Origin: Caldicellulosiruptor morganii
GTDB lineage: Bacteria; Bacillota; Thermoanaerobacteria; Caldicellulosiruptorales; Caldicellulosiruptoraceae
Direction: 5' to 3'
Length of the DNA stretch: 64,000 bases
NCBI RefSeq assembly: GCF_026810225.1
Contig: NZ_CP113865.1
Span: 124,001 to 188,000, forward strand
Shown: in pieces, positions 21,127 through 30,820 of the stretch
How positions within the stretch are numbered: position 1 is the stretch's first letter
Layout of the letters: the number at the start of each line of letters is the position of its first letter
The notes under the pieces: generated by a model
The model's input: only the letters and a program-made list of their open reading frames with translations
Told to the model about the DNA's origin: nothing
Databases searched by the model: none
Position numbers and translations under genes: made by a program

Positions 21127-21342
21127 TTAATAAAACCTCCACTTTCAGCTGCAGCCTCTTTTTTTATACTTTCATATTTTCCTCATCTCTTTTTACGCTT
21201 GTTTTTTAATTATCGTATTCTGATTAAATTATACCACAATCCAATTCAAAAAGATTTCTAAAAATATGTATATCTTTTTTGTAAAGTATGTGGTATATAT
21301 AAAGTTAAAATAAACTTTTGCGGGAAGATTGTGATTTTGAAG

Positions 21343-21648
21343 ATGAACAGGCACACACAGATACCCGAAAAATTTAAAAAATTCTTCTGGGATGTTGAAT
21401 TTGAAGACTTAGACATTCAAAGGAACAAAACATTCATTATAACAAGGCTTTTGAATTTTGGAGACCAGGATTGTATAAAGTGGCTATTTAGCACATATTC
21501 AAAAGAAGAGATTAAAGATGTAGTAAAAAATAGCAGAGGGCTTTTGAAAAAACCTGCAAGGTTCTGGCAGCTATATTTCAACTTGAAAGAGGATGAAATG
21601 AAATGTTTTGAGGTATTTAAAAAGATGGAGGGATTGTATCCATTTTAG
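21343..21648 (+). CDS. DUF6922-like protein, probable antitoxin of an AbiE-type pair
   Basis: A 101-residue protein that reads RHTQIPEKFKKFFWDVEFEDLDI at its start and SRGLLKKPARFWQLYF near the middle, typical of small DUF6922-type proteins encoded before AbiEii-like nucleotidyltransferases. Start choice is uncertain: the ATG at 21343 lies 15 bases after GGGAAG, a TTG at 21337 9 bases after, and a GTG at 21331 3 bases after. It is followed 30 bases later by the nucleotidyltransferase gene, so the two are very likely co-transcribed. The antitoxin role is inferred from this pairing. Confidence 0.75.
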   Translation: MNRHTQIPEKFKKFFWDVEFEDLDIQRNKTFIITRLLNFGDQDCIKWLFSTYSKEEIKDVVKNSRGLLKKPARFWQLYFNLKEDEMKCFEVFKKMEGLYPF

Positions 21649-21678
21649 TGGTATTTTAAAATGGAGGTTAGCTTTAAG

Positions 21679-22317
21679 ATGTTTTTTAATGTTTTAGAAT
21701 ATCAAAGATATGAAGTTCTAAATAAGATTGTAAAAAGTGATGTTGTTGGAGAGTCTTACCTGGCTGGTGGAACAGGACTTGCTTTGCAGCTTGGGCATAG
21801 AGTTTCTGAAGATTTTGACTTTTTCTCACCAGTAGAATTTTCAGGTGATGATATAATATACAAATTAGAAAAGGTGGGCGACGTAAACATATTGTATTCA
21901 TCCAAAGATACTCTTCATTTGCTTTTAGATGGAGTTAGGGTAACATGGCTATATTATTCCAATCCGTTGTTAGATAATCTTGTAATACCGGCTGAAATAA
22001 AAGGTTTGAGAATTGCTTCAAAAAAAGATATAGGCGTGATGAAACTGGTTGCCATTTCTTCAAGAGGGACAAGAAAGGATTTTATTGATTTGTACTGTAT
22101 ATGCCAGTCAGGAATAGAGCTTGATGAGCTTTTTAAACTTCTTCCACAAAAATTTCCAAACAAAGTGATAAATCTTTATCATATTCTTATTAGCCTTTGC
22201 TACTTTGATGATGCAGAGAATGAAGCAATGCCTAAAATGCTCATTAGACTTGATTGGGATGATGTCAAGAAATTTTTCTTAGATAATTGTAAGAAATTAA
22301 TCAAACTGATAGAATGA
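21679..22317 (+). CDS. AbiEii/AbiGii-type nucleotidyltransferase toxin
   Basis: A 212-residue protein with the nucleotidyltransferase core GGTGLALQLGHRVSEDFDFF (30-49), where GG and DFD supply nucleotide and metal binding. The later KKDIGVMKLVAISSRGTRKDF, with spaced K, D and K residues, is the family's second motif. AbiEii toxins are GTP- or CTP-using enzymes that modify tRNA and act in type IV toxin-antitoxin and phage-abortive systems. The ATG at 21679 follows GGAGG by 11 bases; an in-frame ATG at 21661 overlaps that ribosome site. All motif residues are present, so the enzyme is likely active. Confidence 0.87.
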   Translation: MFFNVLEYQRYEVLNKIVKSDVVGESYLAGGTGLALQLGHRVSEDFDFFSPVEFSGDDIIYKLEKVGDVNILYSSKDTLHLLLDGVRVTWLYYSNPLLDNLVIPAEIKGLRIASKKDIGVMKLVAISSRGTRKDFIDLYCICQSGIELDELFKLLPQKFPNKVINLYHILISLCYFDDAENEAMPKMLIRLDWDDVKKFFLDNCKKLIKLIE

Positions 22318-26461: not shown

Positions 26462-27058
26462 ATGGGAATGATAACATACACAATTGACAGCAGGCTATAT
26501 ATCAATGTCACAAACAAGTGCACAAACTCATGCATATTCTGTATAAGAAACACTGAAAGAGGTCTTGGTGATGGGTATGACCTGTGGCTGGACCATGACC
26601 CAACAGCAGATGAGATTTTAAATGAGATAAAAGACCCGCAAAAGTATGATGAGATAATCTTCTGTGGCTATGGTGAGCCTTTGATAAGACTTGATGTTGT
26701 AATTGAGGTTGCAAAGAGGCTAAAAGAGAAAACAACAGTGCCCTTGAGGGTTAACACAAACGGGCATGCATCATTTATACACAGGAAAAATGTGCCACAG
26801 CTTCTTTCCGGGCTTATTGACAGGATTTCGATAAGTCTCAATGCCTCCAGCAAGCAGAAATACAATGAAATTTGCAGACCTTTTAATGAGGATATTTATG
26901 ACCATGTGATTGAGTTTATAAAAGAGAGCAAAAAATATATAAAAGAAGTGTGGGTTTCATGTGTGGACACCATAATAGATGAAGAGGAAATAGAAAGGTG
27001 CAGAGAACTTGCAAAGCAGCTTGGTGTGAATTTTAAATTGAGAGCGTATGAGGGATAA
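26462..27058 (+). CDS. TatD-linked radical SAM protein
   Basis: A 198-residue radical SAM protein with the iron-sulfur motif CTNSCIFC (about 20-27) and the SAM-binding glycine stretch IFCGYGEPLIR. The protein is short and lacks a C-terminal auxiliary cluster domain, as in the TatD-linked radical SAM family (TIGR04038). It lies 36 bases after tatD, its usual neighbour. The ATG at 26462 lies about 17 bases after GGAG, so an ATG at 26468 is also possible. The reaction is unknown. Confidence 0.9.
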   Translation: MGMITYTIDSRLYINVTNKCTNSCIFCIRNTERGLGDGYDLWLDHDPTADEILNEIKDPQKYDEIIFCGYGEPLIRLDVVIEVAKRLKEKTTVPLRVNTNGHASFIHRKNVPQLLSGLIDRISISLNASSKQKYNEICRPFNEDIYDHVIEFIKESKKYIKEVWVSCVDTIIDEEEIERCRELAKQLGVNFKLRAYEG

Positions 27059-27112: not shown

Positions 27113-28351
27113 ATGAAGTTAAAAAGTTTAAGCGTTAAAAACTTCAAAAGTTTCAAAGAAATGAATATAGAACTAAAAGATTTCAACGTGGTTATTGGTG
27201 CGAATGCTTCGGGAAAGTCAAATTTTGTTCAAGTATTTAAATTTCTACGCGATATTATAAATCTTGGCTTAGAAAATGCTGTATCCATCCAGGGGGACAT
27301 TGAATATCTTACTAATCTAAAAGAGGGCCAAGGTGAAGAATTGTCAATTGGTATAGTATGTGAAATAGAGGATGATGGGAAATTTGCAAATACAAAGCAA
27401 AACATTGAAATGACTTTCCATGAAATGAAGTATGAGTTTTCTTTAAAAGAGAAAAAAGGATCGCCAGGTTTTAAAATTGTTAACGATTGTTTGCTTCTAA
27501 AGTTTAAATTTAAGGATGAAAACGGGAAAATTATTGAGGGTGAAATCAGACTGTCTCATAAAAAAGATAAATTAGTGTATGAAATTTTTCCAAAAGGTAT
27601 TGAGGATAAAGTGGCAAGTCTTGTCCCGCTTTTATATTTAAAAATGGATTCATTACCCCAGAACCTTCTGCTAATTCAAACGCCTTTATTTTTTATATGG
27701 CGGCGCTTGACGATAGATGATATATTCCGTAATATTTCAATTTACGATTTTGAGCCCAAAAAGTCCAAAGAGGCTGCTCCAATTACAGGTAAGGCTGAAT
27801 TAGAAGAAAATGGCAGCAATCTTGCAAAAGTAGTAAAAAACATTTTGGAAAATGAGGAAAAAAGAAGAAAACTTTTTAATTTAGTAAGTGACATTTTGCC
27901 TTTTGTCAATAATCTCTTTGTAGAAAAGTTACCTGATAAGTCCTTGCTTTTCAAGCTCCAGGAATCATACTTTGAAAAAAAGGATATTCCTGCATCATTG
28001 CTTTCTGATGGGACTATTAATGTAATAGCAATGATAATTGCATTATATTTTGAAAAGAAAAAGTTTGTTATCTTTGAAGAGCCAGAAAGGAATATTCATC
28101 CTTTTCTTATTTCAAAGGTTATTGAAATGATGAAAGAAATTTCACGAAAAAAGCAAATTATTGTTACTACACATAATCCTGAAGTTGTCAAATATGCGGG
28201 GATTGATAATCTTCTTTTGGTTTCTCGTGGTAGAGATGGTTTTTCAAGAATTTATCGTCCACTTGAGAAAGACCAAATAAAGATATTTTTAGAAAATGAT
28301 TTGGGAATAGAAGAACTCTTTATTCAAAATCTTCTTGAGGTAGGAGCGTAA
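27113..28351 (+). CDS. AAA15-type ATPase (RecF/SMC-like), possible defence component
   Basis: A 412-residue ABC-like ATPase. Walker A is GANASGKSN (29-37) after the strand SVKNFKSFKEM. The late motifs are LLSDGTINVIAM (signature region), FVIFEEPERNIHP (Walker B and D-loop) and TTHNPEVV (switch histidine). No long coiled coil or transmembrane segment. The ATG at 27113 lies after GAGGTG; the frame upstream to 27071 is not needed. It is paired, 4 bases apart, with a TOPRIM-like gene. AAA15 plus TOPRIM is the architecture of OLD- and PARIS-like anti-phage systems; that function is inference. Confidence 0.85.
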   Translation: MKLKSLSVKNFKSFKEMNIELKDFNVVIGANASGKSNFVQVFKFLRDIINLGLENAVSIQGDIEYLTNLKEGQGEELSIGIVCEIEDDGKFANTKQNIEMTFHEMKYEFSLKEKKGSPGFKIVNDCLLLKFKFKDENGKIIEGEIRLSHKKDKLVYEIFPKGIEDKVASLVPLLYLKMDSLPQNLLLIQTPLFFIWRRLTIDDIFRNISIYDFEPKKSKEAAPITGKAELEENGSNLAKVVKNILENEEKRRKLFNLVSDILPFVNNLFVEKLPDKSLLFKLQESYFEKKDIPASLLSDGTINVIAMIIALYFEKKKFVIFEEPERNIHPFLISKVIEMMKEISRKKQIIVTTHNPEVVKYAGIDNLLLVSRGRDGFSRIYRPLEKDQIKIFLENDLGIEELFIQNLLEVGA

Positions 28352-28355
28352 GTAA

Positions 28356-28904
28356 ATGAACTGTGGCAAAGGTATATACGTTTTGGTGGAAGGTATAGAT
28401 GATGAGAGGTTTTTCGAACGTATATTAAAACCCATGCTCTCTTCTAAATATTCTTTTATTCATATTATAAAATACTCTGGTGATGAGTTTAAAAGCCCAA
28501 AAAGTTTACAAAAGTATTCCAATTACATAAGGGCTTTTGCAGAAAGTAATAATGATTATATTTTTATAACAGATATAGATGACTCACCATGTGTTACACA
28601 TAAAAAAGAGCAAATTGCAAAGTTGATGAAGAATATAAACAAAGAAAAAGTAGTTATAGTTAAAAAGGAGATAGAAAGCTGGTACTTGGCAGGTGCAGAA
28701 GATAATTTTTGTTCAAAATTTGGAATTTCAGAGTTTCAAATTGGTAACACCGAAAAGTTGTCAAAAGAAGATTTTAATAAATTTATCCCCCGGAATTTTG
28801 ACAGAACAGATTTCATGATAGAGCTTACAAAAAATTTTTCAATAGAAAAGGCAAAAAACCGAAATGCCTCTTTTAAATACTTTATGGAAAAGTACATCGA
28901 ATAG
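28356..28904 (+). CDS. Small TOPRIM-like protein partnered with the AAA15 ATPase
   Basis: A 182-residue protein that reads as a compact TOPRIM-type nuclease: YVLVEGIDDERFF near the start gives the catalytic Glu (E12), FITDIDDSP gives the DxD motif (D73, D75), and VKKEIESWYLAG matches a motif of DUF4276-like proteins. The ATG at 28356 is 4 bases after the ATPase stop, and its ribosome site lies inside the ATPase gene (GAGGTAGGAG). This tight coupling suggests a two-subunit machine. It is shorter than AriB or OLD nuclease domains. The exact family was not identified. Confidence 0.7.
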   Translation: MNCGKGIYVLVEGIDDERFFERILKPMLSSKYSFIHIIKYSGDEFKSPKSLQKYSNYIRAFAESNNDYIFITDIDDSPCVTHKKEQIAKLMKNINKEKVVIVKKEIESWYLAGAEDNFCSKFGISEFQIGNTEKLSKEDFNKFIPRNFDRTDFMIELTKNFSIEKAKNRNASFKYFMEKYIE

Positions 28905-29219
28905 GAATTCTAATTTTTAGAAAGTTTTTCTAACAATGATGTTTGAAAGTTTTCGTATATGTCTAAAATATATAAAAGAAAAAAAATATTTTATTAAAAT
29001 AGGTCAATTATTCACATAACCACATTTACAAAAATAAAATACAAATTTATAAAAAGTTCATTTATTTTTGGTATTGATTGGTGTATACAAAAAACATATA
29101 ATTAGTAATGTAAAGAGCAGCTGAGCAAAAAATGAAAAGTGGCTGCGGACAACCCCCTTGGTTTTTTAAAATACATAAGAGGTAGAATCCCCCCCGTTCA
29201 TTTCCTCCTTTTATATAGA
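28905..29219. other. Intergenic stretch, no gene accepted
   Basis: Very AT-rich up to about 29090, then less so. An open minus-strand frame crosses it (29062-29355) but has no ribosome site and runs through the perfect hairpin at 29220-29259, so it is not accepted as a gene. Confidence 0.5.
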
Positions 29220-29259
29220 AAGCGGGCAAGGACGCAAAAAGGTGCGTCCTTGCCCGCTT
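29220..29259. terminator. Perfect 17-bp hairpin
   Basis: AAGCGGGCAAGGACGCA (29220-29236) pairs perfectly with TGCGTCCTTGCCCGCTT (29243-29259) around a 6-base loop. It is far richer in G and C than its surroundings. No T-run follows directly on the plus strand, so it may be a terminator without a clean tail, or a mobile or structural element. Confidence 0.5.
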
Positions 29260-29356
29260 GCGATTTTGGGGGAATTTTTTTAATGCAAGCTTTTTAAAAA
29301 ATATTGTAAAATAGAATAAGGCATCTTTTTTGTCAAAGGAGAAATTCAAACGCAAA

Positions 29357-30820
29357 ATGGCAAGATATAAGATAGGTTCTCAAAGGAGCGGGGTTTTCAG
29401 GAAGACTCAAAAAGAGAAGAAAAGAAGATTTAAACGCAAATACATACTCTACATCTTTGCTGCCTGGATTCTGGCAAATGTTCTTTTGTTTCTGGCAAGA
29501 GAATATATCTCAAACTACTACTTTTCAACCCAGCTACCTGCACTTTCTCCTGAAAATTATAAAAGAATACTCATATTTGCACCCCACTGTGATGACGAGA
29601 CATTGTCTTCTGCTGGTGTTATACAAAAAGCCTTAGCAGGCGGTAGCAGGATAAAAGTTGTTGTAATGACAAACGGTGATGGCTTTACAAGAGCAGCCGG
29701 TCAAAACTTTGGGAAAATCAGACTAAAACCGGAGGATTATATACGATTTGGCTACCTTCGCCAGAACGAGACCATTCATGCTCTTGAAGACCTGGGTGTT
29801 GACAGAAAAGATATTATATTTCTGGGGTATCCGGATAGGGGTTTGAGGTATCTCTGGGAAAAATACTTCGACTCAAAAGTGAGTTATTTCAATTCTCTTA
29901 CAAGGACTTTTCATAGTCCATATTCAAATTCTTATGAAAAGAATGTCCAGTACAAAGGTGTAAACGTTGTGAGAAATATAGAGAGTATTATAAAGTCATT
30001 TGCTCCAGATTTGATAATCTATCCATATTCGCGCGACCAGCATCCTGACCACTGGGCAACCTCTGCATTTGTAAAATTTACCATCCTGAAAATGGGTTAC
30101 AAATGTGAGCAGTGGCAGTACCTTGTGCACAGAGGTGACTGGCCAACACCGTTTGGCAGGCACCCGGACATGTTCCTGGTGCCACCTTTCAAGCTTGCAT
30201 TTACAGACACCAACTGGTATCAGGTGATGCTTGATGATTTTATGATAGAGAAAAAGACAAACTCCATTTCTGATTATCACTCTCAAATGAAGGTTATGAG
30301 AGGGTTTCTGGAAGCCTTTGTAAGACAGAATGAGCTTTTTGCAAAGGTTGATGACATCATTGCAAGAAAGTATCAGGGAGATGATTTATTCTCCTCAAAG
30401 TATATTATTATGAAAGAGCCAACACATGACATCTGGTCGATCATTTTCGAAAAAGGTGCGGACATAGACAGTATCTACGCTGCACATGACAGCAGGAATA
30501 TATATATTGGAATAAAGATGGCCGGGTCGGCAAAAAGACTTATCGGCTATTATCTGCACATCCGTGCATTTAAAGACCAGAAATATCTTGGGAGGATGTA
30601 CATCCAGATTTCGGGAAGTAAAATGAAAAGCGAAAAAAATATGACAACCCCTCAGTTTTCTTTAGAGAATTCAAAATTTAAGAGAAACAAAAACTATATG
30701 ATGGTGACTCTTCCAAAGAAAGATTTACAGAATCCAAACATGCTTTTTTTGAGTCTTCGAACAGAATTTTTGGGCCGTCAGCTTGACAGAAGTGCATGGA
30801 AAGTTGTTTTGCTAAAATGA
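29357..30820 (+). CDS. Membrane-anchored PIG-L family deacetylase
   Basis: A 487-residue protein. A very basic N-terminus precedes one membrane segment (about 30-50), so the enzyme is probably outside the membrane. The PIG-L/LmbE domain has the metal-binding APHCDDETLSSAG (His, Asp, Asp) and, later, YPYSRDQHPDHWAT with the third histidine. The family deacetylates N-acetyl-sugars. A C-terminal region of about 120 residues, from DIWSIIFEKGADI, looks like a beta-rich accessory domain. The ATG at 29357 lies 15 bases after AGGAG; a TTG at 29330 would add nine residues. It converges on the nuclease gene, with 5 bases between stops. Confidence 0.85.
   Translation: MARYKIGSQRSGVFRKTQKEKKRRFKRKYILYIFAAWILANVLLFLAREYISNYYFSTQLPALSPENYKRILIFAPHCDDETLSSAGVIQKALAGGSRIKVVVMTNGDGFTRAAGQNFGKIRLKPEDYIRFGYLRQNETIHALEDLGVDRKDIIFLGYPDRGLRYLWEKYFDSKVSYFNSLTRTFHSPYSNSYEKNVQYKGVNVVRNIESIIKSFAPDLIIYPYSRDQHPDHWATSAFVKFTILKMGYKCEQWQYLVHRGDWPTPFGRHPDMFLVPPFKLAFTDTNWYQVMLDDFMIEKKTNSISDYHSQMKVMRGFLEAFVRQNELFAKVDDIIARKYQGDDLFSSKYIIMKEPTHDIWSIIFEKGADIDSIYAAHDSRNIYIGIKMAGSAKRLIGYYLHIRAFKDQKYLGRMYIQISGSKMKSEKNMTTPQFSLENSKFKRNKNYMMVTLPKKDLQNPNMLFLSLRTEFLGRQLDRSAWKVVLLK

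Follow-up and report, generated by a model that had tools for sequence, protein, structure and literature searches.

Two adjacent genes in the 64,000-nucleotide window that we analyzed (positions 124001-188000 of a 2.48-Mb single-contig genome) probably form a self-contained immune module, in which an ABC ATPase would serve as sensor and brake for a compact TOPRIM nuclease effector. Judged by gene content and base composition, this heat-loving bacterium probably belongs to Caldicellulosiruptor. The OLD-type ABC (AAA15/AAA21) ATPase gene occupies 27113..28351 on the forward strand and encodes 412 residues from an ATG start, an assignment drawing on motifs, profile matches, and a predicted model. 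The TOPRIM gene follows on the same strand at 28356..28904, also starts with ATG, and encodes a predicted two-metal nuclease of 182 residues. These open reading frames agree with a preliminary description of this DNA, which had reported two genes of these lengths separated by 4 nucleotides. Cassette G+C content was 30.9% versus 36.8% for the window, only a mild deviation (13th percentile). Both frames were intact in four further genomes of the genus and were under purifying selection within it (dN/dS of 0.06-0.27 for the ATPase and 0.10-0.35 for the TOPRIM protein), and we therefore regard them as real genes. An immune role is supported by the pairing of the genes, the TOPRIM fold, the catalytic residues, an accessory distribution, horizontal spread, a phage-borne copy, decay in Halanaerobium, and a match to HEC-01A. 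Counting against it are few defense neighbors, no plasmid copies, a single viral contig, a near-core status with stable context in one methanogen family, and asparagine at TOPRIM position 75 in 24 of 75 homologues.

The ATPase exceeded the Pfam cut-offs for both AAA_21 (104 bits; cut-off 27) and AAA_15 (84.2 bits; cut-off 32.1), in line with its earlier designation as an AAA15 ATPase. It contains a Walker A motif GANASGKS (K35), a signature motif SDG (298-300), a Walker B motif EE (322-323), and H354. K35, S298, G300, E322, and E323 were each present in 72 of 72 homologues and H354 in 70 of 72. The predicted model (pLDDT 87.1) aligned with the heads of SMC, Rad50, and PtuA at Z of ~19-21, indicating an SMC/Rad50/PtuA-like fold. 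Membership of the OLD family calls for an AAA15/AAA21-type ABC ATPase with intact Walker A, signature, Walker B, and H-loop, and the protein has them. It should bind ATP and would probably hydrolyze it.

No Pfam family reached its cut-off with the TOPRIM protein of the window, the nearest being DUF4276 (27.1 versus 30.2 bits), OLD-like_TOPRIM (19.6 versus 23.2 bits), and DUF3226. Its homologues leaned variously toward these three families or DUF4435, with 25 of 75 matching DUF4276 and 8 of 75 matching DUF4435 at E ≤ 0.01. Searching the protein against solved structures by sequence, singly and as a profile, returned nothing meaningful, and fold comparison alone gave relatives. To this end, we used an AlphaFold model built on 75 sequences (pLDDT 92.7). 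VIA-align ranks 1-20 were all OLD, GajA, AriB, retron-Eco8, or one Pyrococcus protein (Z 8.4-5.6), and rows with unrelated proteins started at Z 5.0, after rank 20. The top match was 2p62, the uncharacterized Pyrococcus protein (Z 8.4, rmsd 4.1, 162 aligned), and other matches included the OLD C-terminal region 6nk8 (Z 8.1, rmsd 4.6, 160 aligned), GajA (Z 7.8), TsOLD (Z 7.5), AriB 8ux9_A (Z 7.4, rmsd 4.8, 157 aligned), and retron-Eco8 (Z 5.7). A single Z of ~8 is middling, but the agreement across the top 20 of these model comparisons is not. Foldseek alone gave no match to the model at E ≤ 0.001, its best being GajA at 4.5e-3. The preliminary description had called the small protein TOPRIM-like and named the lack of a TOPRIM fold as grounds for refutation; the model instead matches the TOPRIM domains of OLD, Gabija, and PARIS. 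The further claim of that description, that the nuclease partner is much smaller than in OLD and PARIS, held relative to AriB (the 306-residue chain 8ux9_A) and failed relative to the C-terminal region of OLD, which spans 198-208 residues.

Across the 75 TOPRIM homologues, the two-metal active site of OLD appears to have been kept complete. In Bp OLD, metal A is bound by E400, D455, and D457 and metal B by E404, T506, and E508, with K562 assisting (PMC6755086). TsOLD has the same layout (PMC7049728), and AriB carrying the E26A change does not cleave tRNA (PMC12409363). E12 of the window protein (codon at 28389..28391, forward strand, as for all codons here) falls onto OLD E400 and AriB E26 as long as no gap interrupts the first strand, the structural alignments beginning at 3->391 for Bp OLD and 3->17 for AriB. 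D73-I74-D75 (28572..28580) form the DxD motif. E12 and D73, which had been singled out beforehand, were invariant wherever covered (73/73 and 75/75), while position 75 was D in 51 homologues and N in 24. D16 was kept in 72 of 73. Invariant in all 75 were E105-I-E107-S-W (28668..28682), a putative metal-B motif within the family signature KEIESWYLAG, and K137 (28764..28766), a candidate catalytic lysine whose role is taken from that of OLD K562 (PMC6755086). Spacings agreed with Bp OLD for the acid four residues after the glutamate, the DxD, and the x-E pair. By equivalence with Bp OLD, metal A would be bound by E12, D73, and D75 or its asparagine substitute, and metal B by D16, E105, and E107, with K137 as the lysine. 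The protein has what the OLD family demands of this partner, namely a TOPRIM fold with the glutamate, DxD, and metal-B/lysine residues, D75 being the one replaced in part of the homologues.

The two genes are an obligate cassette. Scanning 84,980 species genomes yielded 80 loci, which were spread over many bacterial and archaeal phyla and came mostly from thermophiles or anaerobes. The ATPase gene lay immediately upstream of the TOPRIM gene in 72 of the 80, usually with a gap of -4 to +12 nt; among the others, three had a broken or mis-delimited ATPase gene and two were at contig ends. Distances between ATPases correlated with those between TOPRIM proteins (Mantel r = 0.85; 0 of 2000 permutations), and both genes were found in the same four genomes of a 398-genome phylum sample. 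No third shared component was found among the neighbors. Shared neighbors occurred mainly within close lineages, and 165 of 271 were unique.

Within the genus of the window, the cassette is accessory and dispensable. Five of the 12 genomes carry it, all at one and the same site, which was clean and empty in six others, with ~450 bp between the flanking genes. In the window, MetG, TatD, and radical SAM genes lie upstream and a PIG-L family deacetylase gene downstream. The radical SAM gene (26462..27058, forward strand) and the PIG-L gene (29330..30820, forward strand) bound the site and occur in all 12 genomes. One genome (G011) has IS200/IS605-like tnpA and tnpB in the cassette's interval (L046, 2128-3730), and the site thus takes different inserts. 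This distribution of five occupied, six empty, and one IS-bearing site fits the preliminary description of an accessory insertion at the tail of a housekeeping run. The core-genome distribution that it had named as contrary evidence was seen neither in the genus nor in the phylum (4 of 398 genomes), although one archaeal family comes halfway to it (75 of 108). Approximately 5 kb upstream (window 21331-22317), a gene for a DUF6922 protein (105 aa) is followed by one for an AbiEii-like nucleotidyltransferase (218 aa; PF08843, E 5.7e-13). These constitute a type IV toxin-antitoxin-like pair that also looks accessory.

Comparing the window genome to the others, dS of the ATPase gene was 0.10-0.34 versus 0.65-0.76 for a flanking core gene. 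A recombination breakpoint zone lies in the 3' flank (29200..29290, unstranded), where G002 and G004 are of the occupied type on the 5' side and of the empty type on the 3' side. The low dS and the breakpoint together imply that homologous recombination in the flanking DNA transfers the cassette from one species to another. The TOPRIM genes of G002 (L037) and G003 (L038) differed by a dS of 1.17 versus 0.22 for their ATPase genes, which suggests separate exchange of the effector or its faster turnover. Located at the breakpoint is a strong inverted repeat that precedes the PIG-L gene (window ~29225-29260; AAGCGGGCAAGGAC / GTCCTTGCCCGCTT in the window). It was present in all 11 of the genomes aligned, and changes matched on both arms.

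The ATPase tree, a quick one with many weak branches, intermixed bacterial and archaeal phyla. An intact orthologous pair with the same catalytic residues was found on one viral contig, IMGVR_UViG_3300011829_000020 of IMG/VR (L140, 40.5 kb), between ssb and a Holliday junction resolvase gene that is followed by the small terminase gene terS. The contig was found with the 75-sequence alignment, whereas the genus-only alignment found nothing. This phage-borne copy is the strongest single pointer favoring phage conflict, as with P2 old. The phage also encodes a 315-aa protein (phrog_10872; L140 8377-9324) that looks like a nucleotide binder and could be the product of another conflict gene. There was no match among 72,556 plasmids and no TOPRIM match among 50,697 phage records. 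Metabolic genes dominated the neighborhoods of the cassette. Defense families among 268 neighboring ORFs appeared only singly, including at least Cas1, Cas4, type IIG R-M, RT, and DrmMI, a tally that is a lower bound because part of it covers 25 of 92 families. A setting in defense islands was therefore mostly unsupported, as neighbors were mainly metabolic and defense genes isolated.

The cassette neared core status in the family around the Methanoregula genome G402 (taken to be Methanoregulaceae). The TOPRIM gene occurred there in 75 of 108 genomes, at one copy each, and the ATPase gene in 73, with ribosomal protein S2 in 101 as a control. Absences were both clade-wise and scattered, and the cassette is therefore dispensable in this family too, yet resident. 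An FprA-like flavodiiron/ODP gene follows the pair in 12 Methanoregula-type loci (L063, L068, L070, L073, L080, L082, L083, L085, L088, L089, L092, and L113), and a TspO homologue precedes it in eight. In Halanaerobium (L124 and L125, 4948-5255), TOPRIM residues 23-88, including the DxD, are deleted next to an intact ATPase that is 87% identical. Such effector-only decay is what a costly effector would lead one to expect. The archaeal G472 ATPase gene has a true internal TAA. Five archaeal ATPase genes with an in-frame TGA were rejected as further cases, since the TGA is an ordinary stop just before the end of the profile.

If the pair is an immune module, the ABC ATPase would dimerize or oligomerize on ATP and act as sensor and brake, with the small TOPRIM protein as a two-metal nuclease effector that it keeps inactive. 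On reading an infection cue, the ATPase would free or activate the nuclease, which might then attack either host RNA, for instance tRNA in the manner of AriB, or DNA in the manner of OLD and GajA. Phage growth would stop, and the cell would probably pay a price. For this pair, we infer the complex, the activation of the nuclease, its substrate, the trigger, and the effect on phage.

Cran1, an archaeal class 5 OLD protein of Saccharolobus, has a proposed cellular role (PMC12796447), so that a housekeeping function deserves serious weight as an alternative. The pair could accordingly be a resident cellular module, a split OLD-type ATPase-nickase in chromosome maintenance, the cell cycle, or the stress response. 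Besides the Cran1 precedent, the single-copy presence in most of the methanogen family, the FprA-like and TspO genes shared there, and the scarcity of defense neighbors are consistent with such a module. We nevertheless consider it unlikely, given that 7 of the 12 genomes of the genus and 394 of the 398 sampled from the phylum lack the cassette, that it has broken or deleted copies, is exchanged between species, and is borne by a phage, and that the family-level pattern can also be that of a vertically inherited defense gene. Less likely still is a reading that combines both roles: in the methanogen family, the pair may be an OLD-type module that is resident, nearly core, and located away from defense islands, with a cellular checkpoint or stress role (Cran1-like, in two proteins), and thermophilic bacteria and a phage may have received it from that family or from a shared pool, to serve there as mobile immunity. 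If true, one protein pair spans housekeeping and defense.

A strict PARIS variant, with an ATPase that senses anti-restriction proteins and a TOPRIM protein that cleaves tRNA, seemed improbable, and we rank it below those two readings. AriB is among the structural matches, 23 of 75 homologues match the PADLOC AriB model, and some match DUF4435, but the window protein lacks the DUF4435 match that the published rule demands, has 182 residues to the 306 of the AriB chain, and is better fit by HEC-01 models. We gave the lowest standing, that of a very improbable explanation, to a selfish or addiction pair akin to toxin-antitoxin modules, which would maintain itself by killing any cell that loses it and would bring no immune benefit. 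A two-gene cassette, a single stable site, and effector-only decay in Halanaerobium would suit an addiction pair. However, deletion of either gene is non-toxic in PARIS, a similar split pair (PMC9122126), clean empty sites are numerous in close relatives, and plasmid carriage is lacking. An immune module remains our preferred reading.

These results define a compact, coherent ortholog group of at least 75 bacterial and archaeal sequences plus one phage copy. The nuclease of the window copy falls below every Pfam cut-off, yet has a complete-looking OLD active site. Guilt-by-association screens likely miss the pair because it is mostly outside defense islands. Thermophile species that are close relatives but differ in whether the site is filled amount to a natural experiment, and in the methanogen family one can test directly whether OLD-type pairs have an immune role, a cellular role, or both.

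Fold comparison and the split ATPase/TOPRIM layout agree with the resemblance to OLD and PARIS noted in the preliminary description. The pair shares with OLD classes 1 and 2 (P2 Old, TsOLD, BpOLD, and GajA) the ATPase type, TOPRIM size, and catalytic pattern, but is split over two proteins and has no GajB helicase gene beside it. Gabija was ruled out, as the ATPase and TOPRIM protein are encoded by separate genes and the flanking genes are not helicases. PARIS (AriA and AriB; OLD class 4) likewise places an ABC ATPase and a TOPRIM nuclease of related folds on separate adjacent genes. By analogy, the pair would work like a split OLD, that is, like PARIS. The published PARIS rule combines AAA_15 or AAA_21 over threshold with a neighboring DUF4435 (PF14491) protein over threshold (PMC9122126). 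The ATPase passes on both AAA families, whereas the window TOPRIM protein had no PF14491 match at E ≤ 1. It is also ~120 residues shorter than the AriB chain, and the ATPase is nearer to HEC-01A and Mad3 than to AriA. PADLOC models of MADS matched the pair (Mad3, E 7.5e-35; Mad4, E 5.1e-7), but MADS was rejected because the NCBIfam Mad3 equivalog scored 140.3 bits against a cut-off of 420 and no further Mad genes adjoin. The best PADLOC match of the ATPase was HEC-01A (E 7.4e-52, residues 1-411). HEC-01B models matched the TOPRIM protein weakly, with partial profile coverage (best E 2.5e-10), and matched 72 of 75 homologues at E ≤ 1e-3. HEC-01 ("Hma-embedded candidate" 1, HEC-01A plus HEC-01B) has the same two-gene plan, although no Hma system surrounds the window copy and its homologues are mostly outside defense loci. 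Embedding in an Hma system is how the group was identified and may not be required of its members. Several Hma-embedded candidates showed antiviral activity (PMC12988326). By the criteria applied here, the pair is neither PARIS, MADS, nor Gabija, and its closest counterpart is the PADLOC candidate HEC-01. Most likely, it serves as an antiviral alarm of a kind already represented by OLD, PARIS, and the candidate HEC-01.
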